A DNA stretch of 57,644 bases, taken from assembly GCA_027858855.1 (NCBI GenBank), contig JAQIBV010000025.1, positions 1-57,644 on the forward strand, read 5' to 3'. Positions 8,945 to 55,393 of the stretch are shown piece after piece. The position numbers and the translations under genes are program-made. Source of the stretch: Spirochaetota bacterium (GTDB lineage Bacteria > Spirochaetota > UBA4802 > JAFGJZ01). A model generated the notes under the pieces. The model saw only the letters and a list, made by a program, of their open reading frames with translations, ran no database searches and was not told where the DNA came from. Position 1 is the first letter of the stretch. Each line of letters starts with the position of its first letter.

Positions 8945-9523
8945 TTAATTTAAAAATCTTTTAACCGCATTAATAAAAAGCAGTTTGGGGGTAAAATGAG
9001 ATAATTCGGGAGGTAGTCCCATTTGCATTGTCGAAAAAATATATCCATGTATTAAACACACCCAATTCATCAACAATTCATCAGATAACTCAACATCATT
9101 TGCATCATAGGCTATTTCACGAAACAAAAACCTAACTTCATCTATGATTTTTTTTGTTTCTTTACTGGGTACCCGACGACCAAATCCGAACATTAATTGA
9201 TATAGTTTTTTGTTATTAAAAGCGAAATCCCAATGGCATACTGAAAGGATAATAATGCTCTGCCGAGCCTTATATTGCTCCTTTTTACTCAAACGATACT
9301 GAGCATGTAACATCCTGTGCCCCATATGCACCAATTCGTCCAAGAGGTCTTCTTTGTTCTTAAAATACTCATACACAATAGGTGGAGCATATTCTATTTT
9401 TTCGGCAATCTTTCTTATGGTTACAGCATTCCAATCTTCAGCAATAGCTATATTTAGAGCCGTATTCATGATTTTTTCTCGTGTTGCGTCTTTCTCTTTT
9501 TGTCTGCGTTCTTTGTATCCCAT
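8945..9523 (-). CDS. TetR-family transcriptional repressor
   Basis: About 192 residues with an N-terminal TetR_N helix-turn-helix (ATREKIMNTALNIA, then VTIRKIAEKIEYAPPIVYEY and FKNKEDLLDE) and an all-helical ligand domain of the kind found in efflux regulators. I choose the ATG at 9523 (MGYKERRQK). An upstream GTG at 9544 lies inside the predicted operator, so translation from it is unlikely. It runs in the same direction as the tolC operon, 188 bases upstream, and most likely represses itself and the pump until a pump substrate binds. Confidence 0.88.
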   Translation of the reverse strand: MGYKERRQKEKDATREKIMNTALNIAIAEDWNAVTIRKIAEKIEYAPPIVYEYFKNKEDLLDELVHMGHRMLHAQYRLSKKEQYKARQSIIILSVCHWDFAFNNKKLYQLMFGFGRRVPSKETKKIIDEVRFLFREIAYDANDVELSDELLMNWVCLIHGYIFSTMQMGLPPELSHFTPKLLFINAVKRFLN

Positions 9524-9533
9524 AAGCCTCTCA

Positions 9534-9554
9534 AAATCTAACACTGTTAGATTT
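9534..9554. promoter_or_regulatory. Predicted TetR operator at the tetR start
   Basis: A perfect palindrome with 9-base arms AAATCTAAC / GTTAGATTT around ACT, sitting 11 bases before the chosen tetR ATG. The inner 15 bases match the site at 8906-8920 except for one central base. Binding here would block tetR transcription. Confidence 0.7.
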
Positions 9555-9674: not shown

Positions 9675-9710
9675 TTCGGCAAGCCCAGCATAGGTGCTGG
9701 GCTTGCCGAA
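9675..9710. repeat. 16-bp perfect hairpin at the distal end of the CRISPR locus
   Basis: Arms TTCGGCAAGCCCAGCA and TGCTGGGCTTGCCGAA flank a 4-base loop. It is GC-rich and very stable. A transcript leaving the CRISPR array would run into it, so it may serve as the array terminator, although no T-run follows on the minus strand. It abuts the type I-E-like repeat. Confidence 0.75.
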
Positions 9711-9712
9711 TG

Positions 9713-9741
9713 CGGTTCACCCCCACGCGTGTGGGGAAAAT
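9713..9741 (-). repeat. Single type I-E-like CRISPR repeat
   Basis: On the minus strand these 29 bases carry the stem CCCCACACGCGTGGGG and the ending GGTGAACCG, the hallmark layout of type I-E repeats. The other end reads ATTTT instead of the usual GTGTT, as in worn terminal repeats. It shares no sequence with the 32-base I-C repeats 115 bases away, and no second copy stands one unit either side. No type I-E cas gene is present in the window. Likely a relic. Confidence 0.55.
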
Positions 9742-9855
9742 TAAAAATCAGTTTAAGGATGATATCTTTTCGATAGGTGGAACTTTTGAAACTAGTTACA
9801 ATTCCTCTTAGGTAATGTTTAAGGAATAAAAGACAAAAACGGCGTCGATATTTAT

Positions 9856-10481
9856 GTTTCAATCCACACGCCCGCACGGGGCGTGACATAATTTCAGCAC
9901 CGGTTGTAACCTCTGGAGTCGTTTCAATCCACACGCCCGCACGGGGCGTGACTCACGTCTTTTTTTTCTCTCTTCAGCTTTTGCAGTTTCAATCCACACG
10001 CCCGCACGGGGCGTGACATAAAATAAGGATTAAACAATGAGTAAAAATATAGTTTCCATCCACACGCCCGCACGGGGCGTGACAAGGGTGATTATTTTGA
10101 AGGTGACTGTGAATTATTGTTTCAATCCACACGCCCGCACGGGGCGTGACAAATTTTGATTATATGCTTTACACCTATAACCTGTTTCAATCCACACGCC
10201 CGCACGGGGCGTGACAACAGCTACTTTATTTGTCGACTCTTCAAGGTCTGTTTCAATCCACACGCCCGCACGGGGCGTGACTGACAGTTTTATCCTTATA
10301 AGTCACTTTATATTGTTTCAATCCACACGCCCGCACGGGGCGTGACGATGTAGCCCCCGGCTCTGCATCGCTTCCCTCTGTTGTTTCAATCCACACGCCC
10401 GCACGGGGCGTGACTATATTGTTTATTTCGATATCTATGGTAAAAACATGTTTCAATCCACACGCCCGCACGGGGCGTGAC
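9856..10481 (-). CRISPR. Type I-C CRISPR array, 10 repeats, 9 spacers
   Basis: Ten 32-base repeats start at 9856, 9921, 9986, 10052, 10119, 10184, 10250, 10315, 10383 and 10450. On the plus strand each begins GTTTCAATCCACACGC and ends GGGGCGTGAC, with a stem GCCCG/CGGGC. Only the copy at 10052 differs (GTTTCC). Spacers are 33-36 bases (33, 33, 34, 35, 33, 34, 33, 36, 35). I-C repeats are read so that crRNA handles end in GGATTGAAAC, which puts transcription on the minus strand with the leader at 10482-10680. The spacer at 10018-10051 contains AAGGA then ATGAGT, as if taken from a gene start. Confidence 0.98.
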
Positions 10482-10680
10482 TGCGGCCTATACAAGCCTT
10501 AGTGGGATAGGCTTGTATAGTGACGTTTCCGCTAACCGCATAAAAATTACAGTTTTCAAAGAACAAAATAATGGCAGGATAACTATTTGGCAAGTTATAT
10601 ATAGAAGAGAATGCATCATTTAATATCTGCTAACCTCCCAGGGTTTCAATGTTAGCTATAGGTTAGCGTAACATTATTTA
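10482..10680 (-). promoter_or_regulatory. CRISPR leader
   Basis: About 200 AT-rich, non-coding bases between the cas2 stop and the newest repeat, the usual place of a I-C leader. Touching the first repeat is an 11-bp inverted repeat, CTATACAAGCC (10488-10498) and GGCTTGTATAG (10510-10520), which may be the integration anchor read by Cas1-Cas2. A second pair, GCTAAC/GTTAGC, lies near 10629-10664. Confidence 0.75.
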
Positions 10681-10971
10681 TTATAGAATAATGGGTGAAT
10701 CAAAATCAAAAGACTCTTTTATACCATGATGTTCAACTCTTCTTTTCCAATTACTGCCTAAAAAATAAAATCTTAAACTGTCTTCATCCTTATTGAAGAT
10801 CCTTAACAATTCAGATTTAAGCATTTCCCATTGTGCTGGGTCAACCTTACACTCAAAAACGCTATTTTGCACTCGAATTCCATAATTTGTGCATGTTTTT
10901 GCGATTCGTGTTAATCGATATCCACCTTCAGTACCAATAGTAGAAATATCATATGTTACAAGCACAAGCAT
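10681..10971 (-). CDS. cas2: CRISPR-associated endonuclease Cas2
   Basis: A 96-residue ferredoxin-fold protein with [11 protein letters not shown] at the N-terminus (the conserved Asp after beta-1), a [20 protein letters not shown] segment typical of subtype I-C Cas2, and a C-terminal strand. It bridges two Cas1 dimers and measures the prespacer. Its gene follows cas1 by three bases and is last in the cas operon, next to the leader. Confidence 0.96.
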
Positions 10972-10974
10972 CTG

Positions 10975-12003
10975 CTACCTCACTATAAAAGGAGTGTACT
11001 GTTCCATATCTCCTCGTATATATCTTGCCATCAACTGTGCCTGTATATGAGGAAGCATACCAATAGTCGTTTTTTCACCAAGAAAAGGATGTGTTATTAT
11101 CTCATCTTTACGTTGCTGATACGACTGCAACAACATTTTTCTTGAACTATCATTCATTCGAGTTTCCCCAGTTTCTAAAACATCAAAATCTGAGGCTTTT
11201 ATCTTCTTCAAATTTATTAAATTGAGAACTACTCTATCGGCAATATACGACCTAAACTCTTCCATTAAATCCAACGCAAGCCCTGGACGACCAGAACGTA
11301 ATCTATGCAAAAACCCTACTTGAACATCCAAACCGGTTGTTTCCAAAGATGAGCGGCAATCATGTGCAAGAATACTGTATAAAAAAGATAAAAGGGCATT
11401 TACCCGATCAAGGGGTGGTCTTTTTGATCTTTTTTTATAAAAAAAATCTTCTTTTTGAGAAACAATCAAATTATCAAAATTGGAAAAATAACAAGCCGAA
11501 GCTTCACCTTCATAACCACGGATCGAGTCAAGATTGTCGGCCTTTACAAGTAACAACAAACTTCTTTTAAGCTTATCAATAGTTTTTTGAATATCTCCAG
11601 TAGGTAAATCACCATGATTTCGTATATGCCTTTGCAGTGTCGAACGCATATTTTTTATTTTAGCAGCAACTATATTTTTTGCTATTGCAGATGATTCTTT
11701 ATCACTATCAGAAAACTTATATTGTTGCTTACGTAACAGTACATTTCCACTTTGCTTACCAACTACTTTTGCAAGAAATTTTCCATTCATAGACAGAAAA
11801 CTGATACCTATATTGTTTTCTGCGCAAAACGCCATTAATGAAGGGCTCATTGCCTTATAACCGAACAAAACGATATTTTCTATTGTGTGTACAGGCGCCT
11901 GAAAAGCTTTTTTATTATCCAGCATAACTACAAATGTCATACCTTCTTTTCGTAAAAATGCATCAGGTGAAGTTACATACAATGTATTAAGATGTTTTTT
12001 CAT
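10975..12003 (-). CDS. cas1: CRISPR integrase Cas1 (type I-C)
   Basis: A 342-residue Cas1 of the I-C type. It has an N-terminal beta domain (NTLYVTSPDAFLRKEG is characteristic) and the helical integrase domain with the metal triad: Glu165 in RGYEGEAS, His233 in VGFLHRLRSGRPGLALD, and Asp245 with the following MEEF acids. It inserts new spacers at the leader end. It overlaps cas4 by four bases (ATGA), so adaptation genes are translated together. Confidence 0.97.
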   Translation of the reverse strand: MKKHLNTLYVTSPDAFLRKEGMTFVVMLDNKKAFQAPVHTIENIVLFGYKAMSPSLMAFCAENNIGISFLSMNGKFLAKVVGKQSGNVLLRKQQYKFSDSDKESSAIAKNIVAAKIKNMRSTLQRHIRNHGDLPTGDIQKTIDKLKRSLLLLVKADNLDSIRGYEGEASACYFSNFDNLIVSQKEDFFYKKRSKRPPLDRVNALLSFLYSILAHDCRSSLETTGLDVQVGFLHRLRSGRPGLALDLMEEFRSYIADRVVLNLINLKKIKASDFDVLETGETRMNDSSRKMLLQSYQQRKDEIITHPFLGEKTTIGMLPHIQAQLMARYIRGDMEQYTPFIVR

Positions 12004-12623
12004 GTTATCGAATATAATTCCGTTATATAATTTTGTATTTTTTTATGGGAAATTTTTGGCATACATTGACTATTTAATGAACAACTCTTACATTTATTCG
12101 AATAAACCGGATCCGGGATTATTTGGTTTTTAACCATATCGTGAATCGCATAAATTACTTCTTCAGTTTGATTTCGCAATTCTTCAGTAAATGGTATTTC
12201 TGTTCGACGTCGCTCTTTACCGTAAAAAAGGGCACCAAAATCAATACTACAGCCCATCATCTCTTCAAGACATAAGGCCTGTGCCATTAACTGAGCCGCA
12301 TCACAATTATCCAGCTTTTGCTTTCCGACCTTGTACTCGACGGGGTACATCTTATAAGCACCATCAGATTTTGTAATCTCCACAATATCAGCTTTACCAG
12401 ACAAACCCAATCGCTCGCTTGATATATAAATACTTCTTAGTGTATACTTGTTAATACGACGCTCTATCTTGCCACTATCAGCATTTTCATGAAAAAGTTC
12501 ACCTCGAGTGGTAAAAACGTTTTCCTGCCATAAGCCTGCGACATGTATCAATGCACATTGTCTTTTGCAAAAAATATAATGCTGTATAGCAGAAAGTTGA
12601 ATATAATCGTCTTCAGAATACAT
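12000..12623 (-). CDS. cas4: CRISPR-associated exonuclease Cas4
   Basis: A 207-residue RecB-like nuclease with an Fe-S cluster. One cluster cysteine is in IFCKRQCALIH near the N-terminus and the other three are in CKSCSLNSQC near the C-terminus. The PD-(D/E)XK active site reads YPVEYKVGK. In I-C systems Cas4 joins Cas1 to trim prespacers and to select for the PAM. A 100-base gap holding a hairpin separates it from cas7 upstream, whereas it is fused translationally to cas1. Confidence 0.96.
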   Translation of the reverse strand: MYSEDDYIQLSAIQHYIFCKRQCALIHVAGLWQENVFTTRGELFHENADSGKIERRINKYTLRSIYISSERLGLSGKADIVEITKSDGAYKMYPVEYKVGKQKLDNCDAAQLMAQALCLEEMMGCSIDFGALFYGKERRRTEIPFTEELRNQTEEVIYAIHDMVKNQIIPDPVYSNKCKSCSLNSQCMPKISHKKIQNYITELYSIT

Positions 12624-12723: not shown

Positions 12724-13578
12724 TTACAATTTTTCGAGCAAAGCAACACCAGATGGCATATCACTGCTTTTGGGTATTGTTATCGCATAATCAGTAAACG
12801 ACCTGGGTAAGTCACTATTTGATTTTACTATTACTTTTTCAAATAGTTCGCCCGAACGAGCATTACCAAGATGGCTGTCATGCTTGAACACTATTAATTT
12901 TCTGGGATTCATTTCTCCACGAGCAGCAGCTCGGTCATGTTCAAAGGCATTAATTAAAGATTCCCAAAGTAACTCCAGATCTTTTTCGTTAAATCCCGTC
13001 TTTACTGCGTCAACAGCCGAAATGAAACCATGCATACGATATAGTGCATATGGCACAGTTGATTTACGTCCAAAAGTTGAAGCATGTTCTCGAGATTCTT
13101 GTGCCGTTGCTTCTTTCGGTGTTGTAACAGCACATCTTGTAATTGAATGCTCTGCTTGATATATACGATCCATAGATCGTGAAAAAACAAATTGTACTGG
13201 TCCACGAACAGTACCAGCAGGTTTATTGCCCGTACTCATAACTGCCCCAAATGTTCTTATATCATAATAATTTTTGCATAAATCAACTTGTCGATCTTTT
13301 AATTCTTTTCCATCAGCTGACTCAATCACCGTATTTAACACATTATCCTGTTGAATAAATATATTATAACCAGTTTTATCAAAACTTTCATCAAATGTTG
13401 ATTTTAGCATTACATAATTACGAACTTTTCGTTTTATACAAACATCTGTAATAATTCCATGTTGATTTTCTACATCAGCTCGCGGTAAATTTGCCTGATC
13501 AGGGTCTCCATTAGGATTACCATCTTTAACATCATACAAAAATATAAAATCATAACGGTTTTTTACAACATCACTCAT
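12724..13578 (-). CDS. cas7: Cascade backbone subunit Cas7 (Csd2, type I-C)
   Basis: A 284-residue RAMP protein that coats the crRNA spacer in the I-C Cascade. It opens with YDFIFLYDVKDGNPNGDPD, the signature of Csd2/Cas7c, and contains RGPVQFVFSRSMDRIY and ITRCAVT. The start overlaps the stop of cas8c by four bases (ATGA), suggesting tight stoichiometric coupling. Length is normal for the family. Confidence 0.97.
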   Translation of the reverse strand: MSDVVKNRYDFIFLYDVKDGNPNGDPDQANLPRADVENQHGIITDVCIKRKVRNYVMLKSTFDESFDKTGYNIFIQQDNVLNTVIESADGKELKDRQVDLCKNYYDIRTFGAVMSTGNKPAGTVRGPVQFVFSRSMDRIYQAEHSITRCAVTTPKEATAQESREHASTFGRKSTVPYALYRMHGFISAVDAVKTGFNEKDLELLWESLINAFEHDRAAARGEMNPRKLIVFKHDSHLGNARSGELFEKVIVKSNSDLPRSFTDYAITIPKSSDMPSGVALLEKL

Positions 13579-15449
13579 TTTTTTCCTCCTGCTTCGTTTT
13601 CTACGTCAGTTTCAATAGCATCTTTCAATTCTTTATTTTTTTGAGCCTGCATGAATATATCCTGCTTTTGATGATAATAACCAACTGCAAATTGCCCTTG
13701 CTCTTCTAATGAAAACATAGTGGGCAAAATGTCTATTTTACTCATAAGCTCTCCAAGCTGTTTATCAAAATAGATTACAAGCCCCTTTTTTTCACCTTTT
13801 AATTTAGTCAAATGTTGCTGACACATTCTAAATAGCCGGCCAAAAGCTGTTGCGGGTGTCGTTGATGCAGAAGCAAAAAAACGTTCCCTTATGCCGGCAT
13901 TCACACTATCACCTAACGCCGCTCGCTGTATACTTTCCATAACTGCAAAAACACGCCCAGTTAAATAAGCAGTGCTCTTGTTCTCTTTGTCCAACTGTTC
14001 CTTCATATTTTTTTGACCTCCTTTATTATTCCTATTAATTAGCAATTTAATAAGAGATGCACTAGAGGCATCTATACGCCCTCCTTCTGTTTTTATTCTT
14101 CTTAAAACTTTATCCAGTATGTTTATTGGGGGTATATTACCCTGCAATGCAGTTTTCCATAATAATGCACCAGTACGTGAAATAGACACATCATCAAAAT
14201 CTATACCATACATAACTGTTCCGTTTTTTTCAGTTTTTTTATGTACCGCACATGCCCATGCAAGTTTATTGATTGATGGATATATAACACTGGAAGATGT
14301 TTTAGAATAATTTATTATCCCTATATCCTTAAAATAATGTGCAATATTGCTTTTTAACTGCTCAAGCGTAAGTGACATCCAGTCTCTTACAGCTATCCTT
14401 GCTGCAGCACCGCTAAGCGTTATTGAGTAAAAGAAGTCGGTTTGCATGTTTTCTGAAATATGTTTTTTACCTTTAGCAGGGGAAGATAAAGTTTGATTTA
14501 CATCGGAAAGCTGAGCATCTTTTTTATAATCGATATTGTCATTAATTAAGTCGAGTATATCGACATCTTCAGGATGCTCAATATAATCTATCTCTTGAAC
14601 AGGTTTATTACTTTTTAACCAGTATACTATCGCTGTGTCTTTACCCAGATTTTTTCGGTTACTGTAAATTATTTTTCTCTTTTTACCATCACTAATCAAA
14701 TCTCCACTAGTTAATAACCAATTAAAACCCTGTGTATACAATCTCGCGCAATGCGTACATACGGAAGAATTATCATTACCTGATAATAGATATGATTCAT
14801 ACGCATTTTCATTATATGAAATCAAAGCACACCCACTTGATTGACCATCAGGTACTCTAGATATCATGCCATGTGGTATATCAATAACAGGGTATTTAGA
14901 AAATCCGCAAATTGAACATAGTTTATGATTGTTCAATTCAATATTTTTATTATTATATTTTTCTATAATGGATTTTATTACAGGTATTTTTTCATTAATT
15001 CTATTTTTATCACCATCTATCCTTATTGCAACATTGTTTTTTCTTTGTTTTTCCGGAATTATTTTATCAAAATTCCTAATAGCTTTATTTTTTTCACTTT
15101 TACTTTTTATAAACTTTAATACTGTTTGTATTTCCTGTATGTCGTTATACTGGTTTAATTTTTCAATATACAAATCATGTTTTTTTTGATTATTATTATA
15201 TCCAAGTATTTCTTCTACTTTATCAACAAGTAAACGAGCTTTCCCTTTTTTTGATGTCAATAACTCAACTTTTGTACTCATTTTTTCATCAGGTAATAAT
15301 ATGAAATCAATAAATTTACTATCATTATCAATAACTAAATCAATACCGATTCTGATTTCATCCAAAGCATCATCTTTAAGTATTGTCTTTTGGTCACGCA
15401 ATGTTTGACCTAAATCACATAATTCTTTTATCATATCACGCCTCCTCAC
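13575..15449 (-). CDS. cas8c: Cascade large subunit Cas8c (Csd1)
   Basis: Large subunit of the type I-C effector, 624 residues, which reads the PAM and opens target DNA. A zinc-ribbon-like part has CSICG near residue 197 and CTHCARLY about 50 residues later. The C-terminal third is helical and probably carries an internally translated small subunit (Cas11c), known in I-C systems; I see no clear internal Shine-Dalgarno to place it. It overlaps cas5 by 14 bases and cas7 by four. Sequence is lysine- and asparagine-rich, like much of the locus. Confidence 0.94.
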   Translation of the reverse strand: MRRRDMIKELCDLGQTLRDQKTILKDDALDEIRIGIDLVIDNDSKFIDFILLPDEKMSTKVELLTSKKGKARLLVDKVEEILGYNNNQKKHDLYIEKLNQYNDIQEIQTVLKFIKSKSEKNKAIRNFDKIIPEKQRKNNVAIRIDGDKNRINEKIPVIKSIIEKYNNKNIELNNHKLCSICGFSKYPVIDIPHGMISRVPDGQSSGCALISYNENAYESYLLSGNDNSSVCTHCARLYTQGFNWLLTSGDLISDGKKRKIIYSNRKNLGKDTAIVYWLKSNKPVQEIDYIEHPEDVDILDLINDNIDYKKDAQLSDVNQTLSSPAKGKKHISENMQTDFFYSITLSGAAARIAVRDWMSLTLEQLKSNIAHYFKDIGIINYSKTSSSVIYPSINKLAWACAVHKKTEKNGTVMYGIDFDDVSISRTGALLWKTALQGNIPPINILDKVLRRIKTEGGRIDASSASLIKLLINRNNKGGQKNMKEQLDKENKSTAYLTGRVFAVMESIQRAALGDSVNAGIRERFFASASTTPATAFGRLFRMCQQHLTKLKGEKKGLVIYFDKQLGELMSKIDILPTMFSLEEQGQFAVGYYHQKQDIFMQAQKNKELKDAIETDVENEAGGKK

Positions 15450-16137
15450 TATGATGAAGCTCTTCTATAATACTCATGTGCTCATAATCGACTGGTACTA
15501 TTTTATGTGATGATTTCATCATCTTCAGGTTTTCTTCTTCTGGGCATTCAAGTACTCCATCAACGATTGCCACATCATAAAAGAAAAAGGGAGCAGGTAT
15601 ACCCTCTTCATCATAGAAAATATCAAAAAGCATACTGCCAATAGGTATTGTTTCGCTTATGGGTATCTCTTTGTCATTGGGAGTCTCGAATTCAACAGCA
15701 AATTCCCGAGTTCCAAAAAATGGCCTACGGTAACATTGCCCCTTTTTAACTCGTCGTTTAAACATCTCTGTATATTTTTTCGGAGGGTTTTGTTCTGATA
15801 CAGGATCCTGATATACCGATGCCTCAATTATATAAGAAACATCCTTTAATATTATGCTGTTCCGTTGCGCCCTTATATTTTCGATAATTAATGGCGTTTT
15901 TGCTTGTTTGCTTTTTATTTCATTTCTTTTTATTGAAGTAAACCTAACCGGATTCATAACCAGTATTCTTCTTACATACCATTGAAACTCGGGTTTCCAT
16001 AGAATTGAATCGAGTATACCTCTTGCTGCGGATGGAGTCATACACGGATAACTCATTCTTTCGACTTTAAGATCAGGCCTTGTAAAACAGGCATAATCAC
16101 CCGACACCTTAACACGGACAATCTCATCATATAACAT
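15436..16137 (-). CDS. cas5: crRNA-processing endonuclease Cas5c (Cas5d)
   Basis: In type I-C systems Cas5 replaces Cas6 and cuts the repeat to make crRNAs. The 233-residue protein starts with a RAMP ferredoxin strand (VRVKVSGDYACFTRPDLKVE) and has SYPCMTPSAARGILDSI, the Cas5d signature. The YRRPFFGTREFAVEFE segment is the second conserved block. It lies nine bases downstream of cas3 and overlaps cas8c. Confidence 0.96.
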   Translation of the reverse strand: MLYDEIVRVKVSGDYACFTRPDLKVERMSYPCMTPSAARGILDSILWKPEFQWYVRRILVMNPVRFTSIKRNEIKSKQAKTPLIIENIRAQRNSIILKDVSYIIEASVYQDPVSEQNPPKKYTEMFKRRVKKGQCYRRPFFGTREFAVEFETPNDKEIPISETIPIGSMLFDIFYDEEGIPAPFFFYDVAIVDGVLECPEEENLKMMKSSHKIVPVDYEHMSIIEELHHSEEA

Positions 16138-16146
16138 TTTTACCCC

Positions 16147-18330
16147 CTAAACCACGTAATTATCAGATTTTTTATTATCGTAAACAATACCATTTTCATT
16201 GTTATAGCCTCCAAGCCAGACTTTTAACCCAGGTTTTATTTCATATATTATATCAGAATAATTTTTAATCATTTGAGGATAGACTTGAATTGAATATTGC
16301 TGCACTTGTCTGAACTCAAGTTGTGATAAGTAATCAGTATTTTCAATTTGTTGATATAGTTTTTCCGAATCTGAATTATAATTTTTGATAAATAAAAGCT
16401 CAGTTTCGTTTTCTATTAACTTATACTTATCTGATACTGTTTTAAAGTTATATGACTTTCTATCTGCATCAATGTTTTTTGTATCAGGATTAATATAGAG
16501 TTCGATTATTGAACGATAGTATTCTGAAAATGTTTCATAACTATGTAATATCTGAGCATCTTTTCTAATAAGATTTTTAGCATGAGATGCACATGTACTA
16601 TATGTTGGTTCAGGCATTTTATTATTTTCTGGTACAAAAATATAAACACTACCTAAATTACTCAACTTTCCCTCTCGATTACATCTGCCAGCCGATTGTA
16701 TTATAGATTCGAGAGGTGCTATTGCTCTGTATACAAGTGGAAAATCAAAATCAACACCTGCCTCAATCAATTGAGTCGATACAATTAGTATCTTCTGATT
16801 AATATCTGTTAATTTTCTACGAATTTCTGATATTACTTTTTTTCGATGATCCGGGCATAAATTAGTTGTAAGTAATTGCCTATAAGTCCACTTTTCAGAT
16901 AAACATAATTGAAAGAAATCACCAGCAGCCTTTTTCGTATTAAAAATAACTAACACCGATTTGTTAGAAGATTCAATCTGATCAACCAAGATATGATTTT
17001 CCACAGGTTCCAGATTATTTATTAATTTATAATCAACCCTTTTAGTACTTTCAAATATTTCTTCCGGATTATTAACTAATTCTGTTAACTTGCTTATACC
17101 GTCGAAACCTTCCCTTTTCTCATATGCAGGCATGGTCGCTGTACAAAATAAAAAAGATGTGGTTGTTAATGCATGAATATTTTTTAACATAGAAAGAGTG
17201 GGTTGTATCATTTCTTTTGGCAATGTTTGTATTTCATCAAAAACAACAACACTATTTACAATATTATGTACTTTACGACATTTAGAAGGCCGATTGCTAA
17301 ACAAAGATTCAAAAAACTGAACTGTTGTTGTAATAATGACAGGATAATCCCAATTTTCACAGGCAAGTCTTCTATAATTATAGCTATTTTCATCAAAACT
17401 TTCATTATCGACTGCTATATTTGAATGATGTTCTAAAACATTTTCTTCACCAAAAAGGTCTTTAAGTACGACTGCTGTCTGATCGATTATGCTAATAAAC
17501 GGTAATACAACGATAACTCTATCCATGTTGTTGTTTTGTGCATGATGCAAAGCCCAATATAACGAAGTTAACGTTTTTCCCATACCAGTAGGCAAATTTA
17601 AAGAAAAGAAACCGGGTTTCATATTGCTCTTTTCTAAAGCGTCGATTCTAACTGCATTACGTAATTTATTAACATTACCCTCTGATGAAAAGCGCTTAAA
17701 AATAGTGTCCATTTTACTAATCATATTTTTTATATCAATTTTATGATTTTTACGAGCAGCATACCTTTTGGGTGACATAAACTTTTCTGTATCCAACCAA
17801 TCAGCATCGGTTATACAACTGAAAAGTAGTCGGGTAAAAAGCTCTCGTTCCAAAACATCTTTATCTTCAATTGGATCCTGAATATCTTTTAATATATTTT
17901 GATCAATTTCCGTATCTGTTAAAAAAGTTTTAACCAACTGATTAAGGGTATCACGATTATTATCGTAGCTACTCATATGGTCGGACGACCATACCCCATT
18001 ATCCGGCAAACCAGAATGGTGACCATCAATAACGTATGATATTTCTTTATAGGAAACTTTAAACTTTTGATTAAATATAGCCCCTGTTAATAATGCACCA
18101 TAAATAGCATGTGGAACACTGCCTCTTGCTCCTCCATGCTCAAGATAATTTTGAAATTCTTTCTGATATTTTCCTAAATCATGCAGTAAACCGGCTATTT
18201 TTGCATGTTTTTCTCCATTAAAACTTCTAGCAAAATTTATTGCTATATCAGACACATTGGTTAAATGATCTTTTAATAACTGCCATTTTTCTTTTGGCTC
18301 ATTTTCCTTAGTATGAGCGTAATAGTTCAT
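16147..18330 (-). CDS. cas3: CRISPR helicase-nuclease Cas3
   Basis: Degrades target DNA after Cascade binding. From the N-terminus: an HD nuclease (LLHDLGKYQKEF, HAIYGALL, GHHSGLPD), then an SF2 helicase with Walker A LPTGMGKTLTSL, motif II as DEIQ rather than DEAH, motif III TATMP, and motif VI QSAGRCNREG. About 727 residues. I prefer the ATG at 18330 (MNYYAHTKEN) because GAGG lies seven bases upstream; an ATG nine codons earlier has no ribosome site. First gene of the cas operon. Confidence 0.96.
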   Translation of the reverse strand: MNYYAHTKENEPKEKWQLLKDHLTNVSDIAINFARSFNGEKHAKIAGLLHDLGKYQKEFQNYLEHGGARGSVPHAIYGALLTGAIFNQKFKVSYKEISYVIDGHHSGLPDNGVWSSDHMSSYDNNRDTLNQLVKTFLTDTEIDQNILKDIQDPIEDKDVLERELFTRLLFSCITDADWLDTEKFMSPKRYAARKNHKIDIKNMISKMDTIFKRFSSEGNVNKLRNAVRIDALEKSNMKPGFFSLNLPTGMGKTLTSLYWALHHAQNNNMDRVIVVLPFISIIDQTAVVLKDLFGEENVLEHHSNIAVDNESFDENSYNYRRLACENWDYPVIITTTVQFFESLFSNRPSKCRKVHNIVNSVVVFDEIQTLPKEMIQPTLSMLKNIHALTTTSFLFCTATMPAYEKREGFDGISKLTELVNNPEEIFESTKRVDYKLINNLEPVENHILVDQIESSNKSVLVIFNTKKAAGDFFQLCLSEKWTYRQLLTTNLCPDHRKKVISEIRRKLTDINQKILIVSTQLIEAGVDFDFPLVYRAIAPLESIIQSAGRCNREGKLSNLGSVYIFVPENNKMPEPTYSTCASHAKNLIRKDAQILHSYETFSEYYRSIIELYINPDTKNIDADRKSYNFKTVSDKYKLIENETELLFIKNYNSDSEKLYQQIENTDYLSQLEFRQVQQYSIQVYPQMIKNYSDIIYEIKPGLKVWLGGYNNENGIVYDNKKSDNYVV

Positions 18331-18930
18331 TAAAAACCTCATTTCTATACACTTCATCTTTTTTAATCAATAACCCCGAAACAAATCCATATTACCTACA
18401 CATAATTCATATTATGTACAACTTTTCTCAACAAAATACATTCTATATACAGATTTTGATTAATATCACAGCTCTCGGGAGCTGAAATTATATCAAAACC
18501 GATAGGTAAGCACATTAGAATACATCTTTCACCTTTACTAGTTCGCATTTTTATACTGAAGCAGATCAGGTAACCTCTCATTATTATCCAAATTTAACAC
18601 ACAACATTAAATAGCACAACATAAAAACCCTGGTGGGCTAAAAAAACAGCTACAATGTCCATGCATACGACATTCTACTACAAACAACAGGCACGCGAAT
18701 CACACGTCGCTCATGCAGAAATCAATCAAACCTGTGCATTTTACAGTGAATCATGCAAAAATGATATACTAGCACTACATAGCCTGGGATTTTTTAAGAA
18801 AATTTGTTCCGGTTAAAAAACGCGGCTTGTATACTCGCAGCAGAAATAGCGATTGACATAACTGTATATCACGTGCAATCTATTAAACAGACTATAAATG
18901 CCATAGGCGATCTGTAATAATTAAACTTTG
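18331..18930. other. Intergenic stretch upstream of cas3
   Basis: About 600 bases without a convincing gene. It must hold the cas promoter on the minus strand; TTGTAC (18421-18416) and TAGGTA 17 bases on is the best match I see, and it is weak. A 61-codon minus-strand frame (18396-18581) has no ribosome site or recognisable content. Nothing else stands out before repeat copy C. Confidence 0.4.
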
Positions 18931-19759: not shown

Positions 19760-20162
19760 CAGGCAACTACAAGGCACAGGCAAAAATTCAACAAAGGTTA
19801 AGGGCGAATAGACATAAATGGTAATCTCTGATTAGAAGCAACTAGAAACAACCTGTGATAATTATAAAGCTTTCAATCAGGTTGCCTTCTGAAACATTGT
19901 AATATTTCGGAGTTACCTATTATGAAAAGAGCTGAAAAACCTAAAGAAACTGGTGCGAGTTTAGTTAAACAAAGAAGCATTTAACAGCAGAAAACACAAG
20001 AGCATTGGGTAAGAGATCATGAAACGCATACTCACTCCTCATCAAAAGTCGTCAGCCCGGTCGAATCAGGTGATAAATTGCATATTGACATGCAAAATAA
20101 CGGATGAGAAAATAGCCCAAACTATTGGGCACCTCTAATAATTAACTTTTTAACCAGGTTGC
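19760..20162. repeat. Gap with dispersed repeat, copy E
   Basis: Non-coding. At 19879-19918 is the 3' core of the dispersed family (GGTTGCCTTCTGAAACATTG ... AGTTACCT), preceded by AATTATAAAGCTTTCAATCA; similar AATAATTAACTTTTTAACCA precedes the tandem array at 20139. A 20-codon frame starting ATGAAAAGAGCTG at 19921 ends quickly and is not convincing. Confidence 0.5.
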
Positions 20163-20371
20163 ATATGCGAGCAGCAAGAGTCATCTTGCGACCAGCAAAG
20201 GTTGCATGTGCGAGCAGCAAGAGTCATCTTGCGACCAGCACAGGTTGCATGTGCGAGCAGCAAGCGTAGCTTGCGACCAGCACAGGTTGCATGTGCGAGC
20301 AGCAAGAGTCATCTTGCGACCAGCACAGGTTGCATGTGCGAGCAGCAAGAGTCATCTTGCGACCAGCAAAG
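20163..20371 (+). repeat. Tandem array of about five 43-bp units
   Basis: Units begin at 20163, 20206, 20249, 20291 and 20334. Each holds ATGTGCGAGCAGCAAGAG, then TCATCTTGCGACCAGCACAG and GTTGC. Within each unit GCAAGA and TCTTGC can pair across four bases. The third unit is 42 bases and differs inside the loop. The last unit runs into dispersed repeat copy B. About 1.5 further units stand at 24153-24225. Confidence 0.9.
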
Positions 20372-20478
20372 GAACTTGCCCTTGTAGGTTGTTCTTATCA
20401 GAACAATAAGTTTTTAGCGCAAGATAAAAATCCTACTGGTAACACGAAAAATTCTTTGGTAATTTTTCGAAGTTCCCT
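20354..20478 (+). repeat. Dispersed intergenic repeat, copy B
   Basis: Nearly identical to the first ~120 bases of copy A at 2805, including the palindrome TTGTTCTTATCAGAACAA and AGCGCAAGATAAAAA, and ending CGAAAAATT-CTTTGGT-AATTTTTCG, a 9-bp hairpin, then AAGTTCCCT. It joins directly to the tandem array. Confidence 0.85.
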
Positions 20479-21802: not shown

Positions 21803-23563
21803 TTAAGGGTTCGTTACTGTTACTGCATTAGAATCTAATGTTACCGCAGTCTGAGCCAGCAGTCTGCCGTTGTTCACTTTTGCGCCGGTTTTCAGGGCAA
21901 TTGCTGTTTTACACAACAAAACTCCCTTAAATTCTGCCGTGGTATTGAGTGTTGCAGCACCTGCGACCTGCCAGAATATATTCTTGGCCAGTGCACCGTC
22001 GCTGAGCGTTATAATAGCACCGCTTGCTAGACTAAGATCCTGATCTATCTGGAATATCCATACATCATTTGAATCACCGGAAAGAGTAACACCCCTATCA
22101 TCTATGTTTACTCCTGTACCCCATTTATAAAGACCCGGCGCGAGTGTCATGGCAGATATATCTCCTGCACCAAGTTCTGTAAAACCCGGGGTTGGTCGAT
22201 CGGCAGCATCTAAATATGCTGCTTGCATGTTAGATATAGCGGTGGTCAGGATTATTGGTGTTGGAGATGAATAATCGGCTGCGTAAATCCTGCCGGTAAC
22301 AATGCTGGTGTCAGTCGAATATTCACCTGATGCCTCCACTGTTAAATCAAATCCTGTAATATAAGTAGCTACAGCTGGACTTAATCCAATATCTCCGACA
22401 ATTGCAGTAGTACCGGTTGTAGAAACTGCTGATTTTGCTAAAATCACATAAATCCCGGCTAATCCAAGATTTACAGGCTCTGGACCTAGGGCTGCTGCAG
22501 CACCTGTTGTAAAACTTACTGTTAATGCAGCGGCTAAGGCATTTTCGGCAATATCCTTTGCACCCGTAGTGACTGTTGTAGTATATATAGTGTTTGTGGT
22601 CAAGTCGACGGTAGGATTAAATGTTGCTATATTTCCGGCAAGTGAAAGTGATACAACACCTGAAATATTTGTTGCACCCTGTTTCAATGTGATCGTTGAT
22701 CCGGTGATTGTTAAAGGATCCATATCCTCACTGAATGTTATCACAACATTACTGTTTACGGCTACATCGATGGCATCCTCCGCAGGGACTGTGGAAGCTA
22801 TCGTTGGTGCAGTTAAATCTTCTGCTGTTCCGGACGTAAAATTCAATGTAAACTCATCAGCTAATGCATTACCTGCAAGATCCTTTACTCCTGTAGTAAC
22901 TGTTGCAGTATACACAGTGTTTGCCTTTAAATTGCTGTCAGGATTAAAGGTTGCATTTTTCCCAGAATCAGATAATGATACAACACCTGCTATATTTGTT
23001 GCACCTTGTTTCAATGTGAATGCTGATCCGGTGATTGTTAATGGATCCATCTCCTCCTTGAAAGTTATCACTACACTTTTGTTTAAAGCTACATCGATGA
23101 CACCCTCCACAGGGACTGTGAAAGCTATCGTTGGTGCAGTTACATCTTCCGCTACACCGGTTGTAAAATTCAATGTAAACTCATCAGCTAAAGCATTACC
23201 TGCAAGATCCTTTGCTCCCGTGGTAACTATCGCAGTATACACAGTGTTTGCCTTTAAATTGCTGTCAGGATTAAAGGTTGCAATTTTTTTAGATTCAGCA
23301 AGTGATACAACACCGGTGATATCGGTTGTACCTTCCCTCAGAATAACAGTTGCGTCAGTGATCGTGTCAGAGTCCATCTCCTCACTGAAATTTATCACCA
23401 AATTTCTGTTTATGGCAATATCGACGGCACCCTCTGCAGGTATTGTGGAGGTTACTGTTGGTGCAATACTCTCAGCGTTGTCTGTACCATCATCACTTTC
23501 GCACCCGATTATTAAACCAATCGACAATAGTAATGTCAAAACCCAAATTGTAAAAATTCTCAT
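21803..23563 (-). CDS. Big_5/DUF3494 ice-binding-like lipoprotein
   Basis: A 586-residue surface lipoprotein: signal peptide with lipobox LIIGC, then three Ig-like Big_5 (SbsA-type) domains of about 100 residues, each opening P(A/V)EGAIDVAxNxN and closing KDLAGNALADEFTLNFTTG. A C-terminal DUF3494 domain follows, from about residue 360 (LGLAGIYVILAKSAVSTTG ... IVGDIGLSPA ... LYKWGTGVNIDDRG ... NIFWQVAGAATLNTTAEFKG). DUF3494 is the beta-solenoid ice-binding fold, but many members outside cold organisms are likely adhesins, so ice binding is not certain. Domains one and two are nearly identical in places, a recent duplication. A two-Big_5 paralogue lies at 39975. Confidence 0.88.
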   Translation of the reverse strand: MRIFTIWVLTLLLSIGLIIGCESDDGTDNAESIAPTVTSTIPAEGAVDIAINRNLVINFSEEMDSDTITDATVILREGTTDITGVVSLAESKKIATFNPDSNLKANTVYTAIVTTGAKDLAGNALADEFTLNFTTGVAEDVTAPTIAFTVPVEGVIDVALNKSVVITFKEEMDPLTITGSAFTLKQGATNIAGVVSLSDSGKNATFNPDSNLKANTVYTATVTTGVKDLAGNALADEFTLNFTSGTAEDLTAPTIASTVPAEDAIDVAVNSNVVITFSEDMDPLTITGSTITLKQGATNISGVVSLSLAGNIATFNPTVDLTTNTIYTTTVTTGAKDIAENALAAALTVSFTTGAAAALGPEPVNLGLAGIYVILAKSAVSTTGTTAIVGDIGLSPAVATYITGFDLTVEASGEYSTDTSIVTGRIYAADYSSPTPIILTTAISNMQAAYLDAADRPTPGFTELGAGDISAMTLAPGLYKWGTGVNIDDRGVTLSGDSNDVWIFQIDQDLSLASGAIITLSDGALAKNIFWQVAGAATLNTTAEFKGVLLCKTAIALKTGAKVNNGRLLAQTAVTLDSNAVTVTNP

Positions 23564-24581
23564 ACATACTCCTTTGTTATTTTTATTTTTTTCTGTACTA
23601 GTTTTATAATTATTCTTGTTTCAAAAATCTTTTTGTTGCAAAAAAAGATGATACCTCACCGGGAGTTTCGCAGCAACTCCACGGAGTTATCCCAGCTTCA
23701 CAAACCAAACACCAGAACCGTTTTCTTACGTTCCAGGTAAAAATATTCACCACAACTTGTCTCTTATTTACACTATACACTTGATTGAATCAGTTGTCTG
23801 TCTGTTAGCGCACATAGAGGACTATAAAGTGTTTTAATTCTTTTTGTTTCTATTGATAAAAAACACCCCCTGACTAATAACCATATAGCATACTGAAATC
23901 AGACCCGAACAAACCGGAGGAAAAGATGAATCACGAAAAACAGAAACAACTGGCCTTAACCGAACATGCGTAAAAGTTAAGAGATTTAATGTCTCTGGAA
24001 GTGAAAGTTCTTCTGATAAGCGGTCAGGCCATTGGGAAAGAGATCCGCACGAATGGATGAAATCTTTTCGGGGGAGTCTGTATCAACCTACACTACAATC
24101 CGGGATGGGAATCCAGCCAGGAAGTGTACAGTGAGGACTTCTTTCGTCTGGGAGTCATCTTGCGACCAGCACAGGTTGCATGTGCGAGCAGCAAGAGTCA
24201 TCTTGCGACCAGCACAGGTTGCCTTCTGAAACATTATAAATTTTCGAAGTTCCCTATTATTAATTTACCTGAATAAGTATGCAGATACCAAAAAATATGC
24301 AATATTCATGCCAATTGCATATTTTTTAAATAACCTGCGTTTTTTTTACAAAATATCTTAAAACAGTTGTACTTTAAAAACGAAACCTATACTAAAGCTC
24401 CTAATCATACTATAATACAAACAGTACAGACAGTCTATGATTATGAATTTATTATCCGGGTCTTTTGAAAAACCTTGTTTTTACAAAAAAACATGCTTAA
24501 AACCATATAAAGCCGGGACGCAGTGATTAAGCGTCTCTCAAAACGAGGTTTTCCGAAGCACCCTTCTGATAATTTATAATA
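23564..24581. other. Gene-poor gap with repeat copy D
   Basis: About 1 kb without a supportable gene. A frame opening ATGAATCACG at 23926 stops after 15 codons. Around 23990-24140 a short stretch reading EVKVLLISGQAIGKEI recalls the C-terminal strand of pirins, but the similarity ends there. Repeat copy D occupies 24153-24255. Confidence 0.4.
24153..24255 (+). repeat. Dispersed intergenic repeat, copy D with 1.5 tandem units
   Basis: Begins with the tail of a 43-base unit (GTCATCTTGCGACCAGCACA), contains one full unit starting 24180, and ends with the 3' core GGTTGCCTTCTGAAACATTA ... TTTTCGAAGTTCCCT. This joins the tandem unit and the dispersed core in one copy, showing that they belong to the same element. 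Confidence 0.8.
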
Positions 24582-39672: not shown

Positions 39673-39974
39673 GGTTAAACTCTTGTACAATTACACCATC
39701 AACAAGGTTCTTGATCCGTTTAATGCTTATTTATCCCCTCTATGTTCGTTGCCGTACAGACGAAACATTATTTAATCAGTATTATTGTCAAAACAGGCAA
39801 TTCTTCCGAATCAGAAAAACCTAAAACCTTTTTTTGAAATAGAATTCTGAATTATGGATTTTATTACAATGGACTACTTTAAGGATTACCTTTTATATAA
39901 AAAATTTATTTCAATAAGAGGTAATAAGTATGAGAAAAGTACAGACTAAATTCAAAAATGGCGGGAGGTTAAAT

Positions 39975-41429
39975 ATGAGGATCCATATATCATGGTTCAT
40001 AACATTACTACTCGCATTTACGCTAATAACGGGGTGTGAAAGCGATTCTAAGACAACAACACCTAATGACAATGCGCCAACAGTAACATCTTCAAACCCA
40101 ACAGAGGGCGATGAGGATATTAATATTAACGGCAATATCATAATAACCTTCAGTGCGGAGATGGATCCTTTAACAATAACCGATTCAACATTTACATTGA
40201 AACAGGGGTCATCTGGGTCAACAAACATCTCTGGTGTTGTATCACTTTCTGATTCAGGAGTCATTACAGCCTTCAATCCTGATAGCAATTTAGCAACAAA
40301 CACAGAGTATATCGCAACAGTTTCAATAGAAGCTAAGGATATTGCAGGTAATGCATTAGCTGCAGAATTTACATTATCCTTTACAACGGGATCTACTGAA
40401 GATACCGTTGCACCAACGGTAGTATCCACAACTCCTGAAGAAGGTGAACTCGATATAGCTATTAACCGGAATATAGTGATAACTTTTAACGAAGCGATAA
40501 ACCCCTTATCAATCACCGACTCAACTTTCATGTTAAAACAGGGGTCATCTGGGTCAACAAATATCTCTGGTGTTGTGTCACTTTCTGATTCAGGTAACAT
40601 TGTAACCTTCGAACCTGACAGCAATTTGACTACAAGCACGGCATATAAAGCAATCATTACAACAGAAGTAAAGGATATTGCAAATAATGAACTTGCTGCT
40701 GAATTTGCATTAAATTTTACAACAGGTACTACATCTGCTCTTGGCCCAATGCCGGTAGAACTTGGAACAGCCGATACTTATGTAATTCTCGCAAAAACAG
40801 GAATTTCAAAAACTACTACTGACGGAACAGCAATTACTGGAAATATCGGTATAAGTCCTGCAGAAGCGACTTATATAACAGGATTTTCATTAGATCTGCC
40901 TGCTGGTAGTTCTTATTCGACATCCATTTATGTCACAGAATTCGTTTACGCACCGGGTTATGCAAACCCTACTCCATCTAACTTGACTACAGCAATAAGC
41001 AATATGGAATCAGCCTACACAGATGCGGCTGGACGCCTGCTACCAGACAAAGTAGATCCAGGATCAGCAGGAGAAATTGGTGGGCTTACTACACTTTCTC
41101 CTGGTCTGTATAAGTTTACAACTGGAGTTACAATATCAACTGACCTTACTCTTACCGGCGGCTCAGACGATGTTTGGATATTTCAGATACCGGGTAATTT
41201 CACCATGGCATCTGGTGTAAAAATAACTCTTGCAGGTGGAGCAGTTCCAAAGAATATCTTTTGGCAGGTTGCCGGCAGTACTACAATAGAGACTACTGCG
41301 GTTTTTAATGGTATTATGCTTTGTAAAACCGAAATAACCATGAAAACACAAGCGGAAGCTGACGGCAGACTACTTGCACAAACGGCTGTTGTTCTTGATG
41401 CGAATGCTGTAACCAAGCCCGCTAAATAA
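39975..41429 (+). CDS. Big_5/DUF3494 ice-binding-like lipoprotein (paralogue)
   Basis: About 484 residues with the same plan as the protein at 21803: lipobox LITGC, two Big_5 Ig-like domains (each with DPLTITDSTF or NPLSITDSTF and AAEFxLxFTTG) and a C-terminal DUF3494 domain (ELGTADTYVILAKTGIS, ITGNIGISPAEATYITG, SPGLYKFTTGVTIS, DVWIFQIPGNF, KNIFWQVAGSTTIETTAVFNG). I start at ATG 39975 because GGGAGG lies seven bases upstream and the signal peptide begins there; an ATG at 39930 would add 15 residues. The two Big_5 domains share an almost identical stretch of about 58 bases (40199 and 40534). Confidence 0.88.
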   Translation: MRIHISWFITLLLAFTLITGCESDSKTTTPNDNAPTVTSSNPTEGDEDININGNIIITFSAEMDPLTITDSTFTLKQGSSGSTNISGVVSLSDSGVITAFNPDSNLATNTEYIATVSIEAKDIAGNALAAEFTLSFTTGSTEDTVAPTVVSTTPEEGELDIAINRNIVITFNEAINPLSITDSTFMLKQGSSGSTNISGVVSLSDSGNIVTFEPDSNLTTSTAYKAIITTEVKDIANNELAAEFALNFTTGTTSALGPMPVELGTADTYVILAKTGISKTTTDGTAITGNIGISPAEATYITGFSLDLPAGSSYSTSIYVTEFVYAPGYANPTPSNLTTAISNMESAYTDAAGRLLPDKVDPGSAGEIGGLTTLSPGLYKFTTGVTISTDLTLTGGSDDVWIFQIPGNFTMASGVKITLAGGAVPKNIFWQVAGSTTIETTAVFNGIMLCKTEITMKTQAEADGRLLAQTAVVLDANAVTKPAK

Positions 41430-53244: not shown

Positions 53245-55393
53245 CGACTGTTCCTTCCTGATCATGCACAAGCGAATGCTGCAATACAACTACCGAACGA
53301 CCTTCTATCTTAATCTTATCTTTTATCTGTGAACTGCCTGTTTGCTTATTCATCTGATCTTTACTTGTATCAATAACAAGCTTCCAGGTGGTACCGTATT
53401 TTTTTGGTGGTAATGAGTAATCAAGGGGGATCTCCGAAGCGTTAAACATAATATAAAAACTGTCATCCTTTATATTTTCACCTCTTTTGCCCTGAGAACG
53501 AACGCCATCCCCATTTAAAAATACAGCTAAAGATTGAGCATAATCATGTTCCCAATGTTCATCCCTCATTACAGTTCCTTCCGGTAAAAACCATTCAATA
53601 TCTTTTAGTCCGCTGTCTTCAATGGGTTCTCCCTGAAACCACTTACGTCTGCAAAAAACAGGATGCTTCCTTCTTAAATGAATCAGTTTACTGGTGAATT
53701 CCAATAAATCTTTATCCGCATTTTCCCAGTCCGTCCATGAAATCTCGTTATCCTGGCAGTACGCATTGTTATTTCCGTTTTGTGTTCGTGATATTTCATC
53801 GCCTGAAAGCAGCATGGGTACTCCCTGAGAAAAAAACAATGTGACAAGCATGTTTCTCTTCAGTCGTTTTCTCCACTCCTTAACCATTGGATCGTCACTA
53901 GGTCCCTCTTCGCCGCAGTTCCATGAAAGGTTATCATCAATACCATCAGCACTGTCTTCACCGTTTTGCTCATTATGTTTTTCGTTATACGATACTAGGT
54001 CATTGAGTGTAAAACCATCATGCACCGTAATAAAATTGATGCTTGCAACCGGCCTACGATAGTTATCCAGATACAAATCTGAACTTCCGGTAAAACGGGT
54101 AGCAAACTCTGGCAACGTACTTTTTGCCCCCCGCCAATAATCGCGCATGCAGTCGCGGTATTTACCATTCCATTCGGCCCACCCAGGGGGAAATTTACCG
54201 ACCTGATAACCACCTTCACCAACATCCCACGGTTCAGCAATTAACTTCGATTGAGAAATATGAGGATCCTGATAGATAATTTCAAAGAAAGTACCCAGCA
54301 TATTTACATCATGAAGTTCCCGAGCAAGTGCTGGAGCCACATCAAACCTGAAGCCGTCAACATGCATTTCCAGTATCCAATACCTCAAGCTGTCCATTAT
54401 AAGTCGTAAAGAACTGCGTAGCGCAACATTCAACGTATTTCCTGTACCCGTATAGTCCATGTAATACCGTCTGTCTTCAGTTACACGGTAATATCCCAAA
54501 TTATCGATCCCTCTAAAAGATAGAGTCGGCCCCATTTGGTTTCCTTCGCCTGTATGGTTATAGACCACATCCAGAATTACCTCAATACCTGCTTTATGAA
54601 GAGCTTTAACCATATCCTTAAACTCGATTACCTGCTCGCCATATGTACCATTACTTGCATATCGAACATCTGGTGCAAAAAACCCCAAGGAATTATACCC
54701 CCAATAATTGGTTAACCCATTTTCCTCTAAATGCCGGTCGGTAATAAAATGATGAATCGGCATCAGTTCAATAGCAGTAATGCCAAGTTTCGTGAGGTAT
54801 TCAATAGAAGCAGGATGCGCAATTCCCGAATATGTTCCTCTCAATTCTTCAGGAATATCCGGATTAAGTTTTGTAAATCCTTTAACGTGAGCCTCATAAA
54901 TAACTGTTTTGTGATAGGGTATTTTTAAAAGTGTATCTCCTTCCCAGTCATAATTTTCATCAATAACCACCGATTTAGGCATAAAAGGAGCGCTATCTGA
55001 ATCACTAAATGATAAATCCACGTCCTTGTGCCCTATTTGATAACCGAAAAGGGAATCATCCCATTTAATTGTACCGGAGAGAGCCTTTGCATAGGGGTCA
55101 ATAAGTAATTTGTTCGGATTAAATCTATGTCCATTTTCAGGTTCATACGGGCCATGTACCCGATAACCATACAGCTGCCCCGGTTTTATACCCGGTATGT
55201 ACACATGCCAAACACCATGAGTGCGCTCCGTTACTGGAAGTTTTTGTTTTTCCTGCTGTTTATTATCCGTATCAAAAAAACAGAGTTCTACTTCTGTTGC
55301 ATTTTCGGTGTATAATGCAAAATTGACACCAATTCCATCCCAGGTCGCTCCGAGCGGAAAGGGTTTTCCCGGATATATTTCATTATTTTTCAT
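53237..55393 (-). CDS. treX: Glycogen debranching enzyme TreX/GlgX
   Basis: Isoamylase-type GH13 enzyme of 718 residues that cuts alpha-1,6 branches to feed TreY with linear chains. It begins with PGKPFPLGATWDGIGVNFALYTENA (CBM48), then VVYNHTGEGN, DGFRFDVAPALAR (nucleophile), KLIAEPWDVGEGGYQVG (acid/base) and TVHDGFTLNDLVSYNEKHN. SGDEISRTQNGNNNAYCQDN follows. First gene of the operon with treZ and treY, all overlapping. The three enzymes together make trehalose, an osmolyte and stress protectant, from glycogen. Confidence 0.95.
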   Translation of the reverse strand: MKNNEIYPGKPFPLGATWDGIGVNFALYTENATEVELCFFDTDNKQQEKQKLPVTERTHGVWHVYIPGIKPGQLYGYRVHGPYEPENGHRFNPNKLLIDPYAKALSGTIKWDDSLFGYQIGHKDVDLSFSDSDSAPFMPKSVVIDENYDWEGDTLLKIPYHKTVIYEAHVKGFTKLNPDIPEELRGTYSGIAHPASIEYLTKLGITAIELMPIHHFITDRHLEENGLTNYWGYNSLGFFAPDVRYASNGTYGEQVIEFKDMVKALHKAGIEVILDVVYNHTGEGNQMGPTLSFRGIDNLGYYRVTEDRRYYMDYTGTGNTLNVALRSSLRLIMDSLRYWILEMHVDGFRFDVAPALARELHDVNMLGTFFEIIYQDPHISQSKLIAEPWDVGEGGYQVGKFPPGWAEWNGKYRDCMRDYWRGAKSTLPEFATRFTGSSDLYLDNYRRPVASINFITVHDGFTLNDLVSYNEKHNEQNGEDSADGIDDNLSWNCGEEGPSDDPMVKEWRKRLKRNMLVTLFFSQGVPMLLSGDEISRTQNGNNNAYCQDNEISWTDWENADKDLLEFTSKLIHLRRKHPVFCRRKWFQGEPIEDSGLKDIEWFLPEGTVMRDEHWEHDYAQSLAVFLNGDGVRSQGKRGENIKDDSFYIMFNASEIPLDYSLPPKKYGTTWKLVIDTSKDQMNKQTGSSQIKDKIKIEGRSVVVLQHSLVHDQEGTVVD

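Follow-up and report, generated by a model that had tools for sequence, protein, structure and literature searches.

How does a single repeat of one type come to stand beside an array of another? The question is raised by a 57,644-nt stretch of DNA from a Spirochaetota bacterium (the window, always meaning the whole stretch), in which a lone 29-nt clustered regularly interspaced short palindromic repeat (CRISPR) of type I-E stands beyond a type I-C array. Our answer, to which we give a probability of about 0.8, is that an earlier I-E array left the lone repeat behind and that an I-C module replaced the I-E module by exchange. This reading draws on the I-E identity of the repeat, its position and orientation, the lack of detectable I-E genes, a truncated end of the I-C array and a reciprocal footprint in a sister species, here called G001. 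A first-pass annotation had placed a lone I-E-like repeat beside a I-C array, and the repeat was found exactly there, with I-C cas genes adjoining.

A search of the window for ATTTTCCCCACRCSCGTGGGGGTGAACCG, the genus-type I-E pattern, gave one hit with zero mismatches. Across 100 dinucleotide shuffles of the window the pattern was not found at all, even with up to three mismatches allowed. On folding, the repeat gives the typical 7-bp stem, closed by a loop of 4 bases. It differs by one base (28/29) from the four trailer-end repeats of the I-E array of G001, the genus-specific ATTTT start included, and by two from the remaining repeats of that array. Because this near-identical array belongs to the same genus, 9713-9741 is, judged by its sequence, a bona fide I-E repeat of the genus. 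The 25-base core is single-copy in the 3.35-Mb genome at up to three mismatches. No second I-E repeat was found in the genome at the same tolerance, so the sequence does not make up a CRISPR array, which takes at least two regularly spaced repeats. Alignment revealed no degenerate I-E repeat beside it that scored above shuffles. Rfam gave no match above gathering scores, and a plasmid search returned weak short matches only.

The window's genome (G000) is 97% complete. A protein search of it at an E value of 0.01 detected none of the six I-E proteins Cse1, Cse2, Cas7e, Cas5e, Cas6e and Cas1e, and a family search found no Cse1 either. A Cas1e-like stretch at 54541-54732 was rejected as a chance match; it lies antisense to a predicted glycogen-debranching-type gene. 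The genome-wide search for a I-E locus and for further copies of the repeat, which the first-pass annotation had proposed, was thus carried out and returned no I-E Cas and a single repeat.

The locus comprises the following features:

12724-18357, minus strand: cas7 (csd2), cas8c (csd1), cas5c and cas3, identified by NCBIfam models

10681-12623, minus strand: cas2, cas1c and cas4, matched by NCBIfam models above cut-off

10482-10680, minus strand: presumed leader of the I-C array; adjoining the first repeat it has an inverted repeat of 11 bp, CTATACAAGCC/GGCTTGTATAG

9856-10481, minus strand: type I-C CRISPR array, 10 repeats of 32 nt with spacers of 33-36 nt

9821-9855, minus strand: last I-C spacer, 33-35 bp long and immediately next to the final I-C repeat, lacking a closing repeat and matching phage YopX-family genes

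9742-9820, no strand assigned: about 79 bp between this orphan spacer and the I-E repeat, assessed by alignment against shuffles

9713-9741, minus strand: lone type I-E CRISPR repeat of 29 nt, reading ATTTTCCCCACACGCGTGGGGGTGAACCG from 9741 to 9713

9675-9710, no strand assigned: perfect inverted repeat of 16 bp that adjoins the lone repeat on the side away from the array; no T-run follows it, and it is unique in the genome

Curated NCBIfam models matched Cas3, Cas5c, Cas8c, Cas7/Csd2, Cas4, Cas1c and Cas2, so the resident system is I-C. On the minus strand the order is cas3, cas5c, cas8c, cas7, cas4, cas1c, cas2 (18357 to 10681), followed by the presumed leader, the I-C array, 114 bp, the lone repeat and the hairpin. 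The lone I-E repeat therefore lies beyond the trailer end of the I-C array, in the same orientation as the array and without a leader of its own. Beyond the hairpin follows a TetR-type regulator gene (8945-9544) with weak family matches only.

The orphan I-C spacer matches YopX-family genes of many phages with 88-94% identity, reaching 94% for a Vibrio phage and 89% for Lactococcus phages. The usual protospacer adjacent motif of I-C systems is TTC. Lactococcus phage Tuc2009 has TTC before the protospacer, and the Vibrio phage has CTC. By these matches 9821-9855 is a real I-C spacer; as no I-C repeat closes it, the end of the I-C array is broken or truncated. Alignment against shuffles revealed neither a degenerate I-C repeat (p = 0.28) nor a degenerate I-E repeat (p = 0.70) in 9742-9820, and no likeness to the I-E leader of G001 (p = 0.89). 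This segment is probably junction DNA together with a remnant of the last I-E spacer. The region of the 16-bp hairpin folds with z = -5.5, and this hairpin is possibly an accidental terminator of array transcription.

The mirror image of this arrangement was found in G001. Its I-E locus (C94:158533-169454) carries a 38-repeat array with the repeat ATTTTCCCCAC[AG]CCCGTGGGGGTGAACCG and 32-nt spacers, and Cse1, Cse2, Cas7e, Cas5e, Cas6e and Cas1e all score above the curated model cut-offs. The last I-E repeat is succeeded by a spacer of 32 nt and then by ATTTT, which equals the opening 5 nt of a I-E repeat; after a single T comes one complete I-C repeat. This I-C repeat is identical to that of the window and is the sole copy in the G001 genome. 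At the other side, directly before the start of the I-E cas3, lies a short open reading frame (ORF), MKYYAHTINRESKEKWQLLREHLGKVAEGV, of about 30 codons, followed by the TAA-ATG of the I-E cas3. It resembles the N-terminus of the I-C Cas3 of the window (57% over 30 aa, E 6e-6). No Cas8c was detected in G001, and the Cas7 match was only 35%, at another locus. Because I-C relics bracket the I-E locus, a cas3 fragment on one side and a I-C repeat on the other, the simplest reading of these sequences is that a I-E module replaced a I-C module in G001 and left both I-C ends behind. A second locus of G001 (C73:6535-12234, L096) shows Cas7, Cas3 and Cas1 similarity; no tandem array was found on contig C73. 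The repeat of the window thus agrees with the I-E system of G001 in its sequence (28/29), its length and the way it is oriented to the array trailer; it differs in being one repeat only, without I-E cas genes and without a leader.

The whole I-E locus of G001, including its I-C relics, is bracketed by a 73-bp direct repeat that is 88% identical between its copies (C94:158299-158370 and 169935-170006; L010 3300-3371 and 14936-15007). The same contig has a partial third copy at 156232-156272, near a gene resembling a repetitive extragenic palindrome (REP)-associated (Y1) transposase. This direct repeat may help modules to move in G001.

A further case was observed in another family of the order. 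G022 has a I-C system with its array and, 17 bp past the last I-C repeat, one I-E repeat in like orientation. No second I-E repeat stands at the expected spacing; the contig ends 52 bp further. A protein search gave no I-E Cas match in G022, and the I-E proteins of G001 detected no remnant of old cas genes there. Its lone repeat has two mismatches to the I-E repeat of G029, from its own family, and seven to that of the window. Because it is so much nearer to the repeat of its own family, the case of G022 is, by this comparison, an event separate from that of the window. Lone repeats of the other subtype at the trailer end of the resident array, with orientation kept, are thus present in G000 and G022 (I-E after I-C) and in G001 (I-C after I-E). 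A survey of 393 genomes from the phylum found I-C and I-E repeats closely joined only in G022 (I-C to I-E) and G001 (I-E to I-C). This survey allowed zero mismatches and gives a lower bound, and the join in the window is too widely spaced for the pattern. A Cas1 scan of GTDB genomes returned three distant I-C relatives only, none with a I-E repeat by a simple scan.

The near-identical repeats and full I-E cas set of G001, the reciprocal I-C relic there and the independent second case in G022 lend good support to the earlier suggestion of a I-E system having stood at this place. The lone repeat would then have closed an earlier I-E array at its trailer end. A I-C module consisting of cas operon, leader and array would have displaced the I-E module with orientation unchanged, and the I-C array would have been joined to the tail of the old I-E array by illegitimate recombination. 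Unmaintained I-E repeats may have been lost, or may have collapsed through repeat-to-repeat recombination to a single copy, which cannot collapse further; we infer such collapse between direct repeats as the cause of the single remaining repeat. Today the repeat would serve no function of its own; should transcription of the I-C precursor extend to it, it would add no more than a small hairpin before the stronger one.

The main rival to replacement is loss. I-C and I-E loci may once have stood in tandem, the I-E neighbour being deleted with the last I-E repeat left past the I-C trailer. One deletion suffices for this, and in the window's genome the relic is indeed on the trailer side only, with no I-E remnant on the cas3 side. 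However, the nested footprint of G001, a cas3 fragment on one side and a I-C repeat on the other, is not given by tandem loss, and no intact tandem I-C and I-E arrays were found in the order among the genomes examined. We consider loss of a tandem neighbour unlikely, albeit worth serious attention. Since the window shows remains on one side only, replacement there rests on the analogy with G001. It is far less probable that the sequence is a chance palindrome or belongs to a dispersed palindromic family, and among the readings considered we give this the least credence. The neighbourhood is rich in hairpins, but the repeat has a single genome copy, was absent from the shuffles and matches real I-E repeats at 28/29 positions. 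A palindromic family spread throughout the genome, the finding that the first-pass annotation had said would overturn its view, was looked for and did not appear; with the repeat single-copy at up to three mismatches and the adjoining 16-bp hairpin single-copy as well, such a family is ruled out.

Solitary repeats can be functional (PMC10651486), and one structured repeat between genes would suit a solitary repeat unit with the role either of an RNA anti-CRISPR (Racr) or of a regulatory guide RNA like CreR. Like the solitary repeat units and RNA anti-CRISPRs of PMC10651486, the repeat of the window is a lone CRISPR repeat that belongs to no array of its type, but it is chromosomal, stands beside an array of another subtype and has no cognate Cas that could be found. 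Of prophage solitary repeats, 83% match the subtype of their host (PMC10651486), whereas the host here is I-C. No I-E Cas6 or Cas7 was found in the window's genome. Moreover, the lone repeat adjoins an array, no phage genes were recognised beside it, and it has no match in 2.9 million viral contigs. Promoter-like sites are near chance (5 versus 3.1, standard deviation 1.7), and the flanks are not conserved, the downstream side being a perfect palindrome in the window and unrelated sequence in G022. Taken with the missing leader, this makes the other suggestion of the first-pass annotation, a lone unit retained for a regulatory role or as a mini-array akin to an anti-CRISPR, very improbable. 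Slighter still is the chance that we are looking at the naive start of a I-E array, a leader with one repeat awaiting spacers. The single repeat is preceded by 114 bp of AT-rich DNA, and an apparent I-C leader with a single repeat does exist in G026. Yet this upstream DNA is unlike the I-E leader of G001, its first 33-35 bp are a I-C spacer, G022 has just 17 bp at that place, and no I-E Cas1 was found in the window's genome.

Several observations weigh against replacement by exchange. The loci of the window and of G001 have no common flanks, and no intact I-E locus was seen at the site of the window. The homologue of the neighbouring SIMPL gene stands elsewhere in G001, in another context, and the TetR neighbour has no close homologue within the order. 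Remnants of I-E cas genes were not found in the window, the cas3 side included. Fragmented draft assemblies could misjoin arrays, which misassemble easily; the junctions of G000 and G001 lie inside contigs, and the pattern is present in three separate assemblies. Finally, exactly one repeat is left in all three cases, which could hint at a mechanism more specific than random decay. Because the joins in three genomes lie at or near array-unit boundaries, always with one foreign repeat left, we raise as a long shot that a repeat-directed process could drive the exchange of whole modules between subtypes in the order, for instance Cas1-Cas2 acting on the ends of repeats or recombination passing through arrays.

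Replacement of this sort is a known kind of event and involves no new kind of device, although its footprint here is unusually clear and reciprocal. Exchange of CRISPR-Cas modules with orphan arrays was reportedly described in E. coli by Almendros et al. in 2014. Orphan arrays after loss of cas genes are known as well (PMC8616872). As in module exchange generally, one module displaces another and array leftovers stay. What differs is that two congeneric species carry reciprocal single-repeat relics of I-C and I-E, with a further case in another family, and that the joins are at or near array-unit boundaries. We found no description of the I-C/I-E mirror arrangement in the literature, where coverage of subscription papers was limited. 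Such reciprocal relics, together with a third, independent case in the order, would document directly that I-C and I-E modules take each other's place. The junctions are resolved to the base, so that the breakpoints of such exchanges and the way in which they are joined become open to study. The relics also advise caution, in that a single repeat next to an array is not necessarily a functional RNA.

Some further observations concern other genomes and the rest of the window. In G026 (C38; L082 7741-7772) an apparent I-C leader with a single I-C repeat has an IS66-like transposase gene upstream, which would be another route to one repeat. About 250 bp past the I-E array of G006 (C21; L011 ~2139-2500) lie stretches resembling halves of the I-C repeat, GTCGCGTCCCGCGCGGGGGCG, GCATGGACTGAAAC, GTCGCGCCCC and GCGTGGCCTGAAAT. 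The best of them scores above mononucleotide shuffles, and they may represent either the decayed remains of a I-C array or palindromes rich in GC. In the window, a 43-bp unit, GGTTGCATGTGCGAGCAGCAAGAGTCATCTTGCGACCAGCACA, forms a dispersed and tandem family (20155-20372, 24152-24222 and 2805-2904/20354-20453). Direct copies of a stretch adjoining this family bracket the 2.8-20.5 kb region with an efflux operon and the CRISPR locus. At 22501-23465, 327-bp tandem repeats lie inside a gene for a repeated immunoglobulin (Ig)-like-domain protein, with a related inverted copy at 39923-40886.
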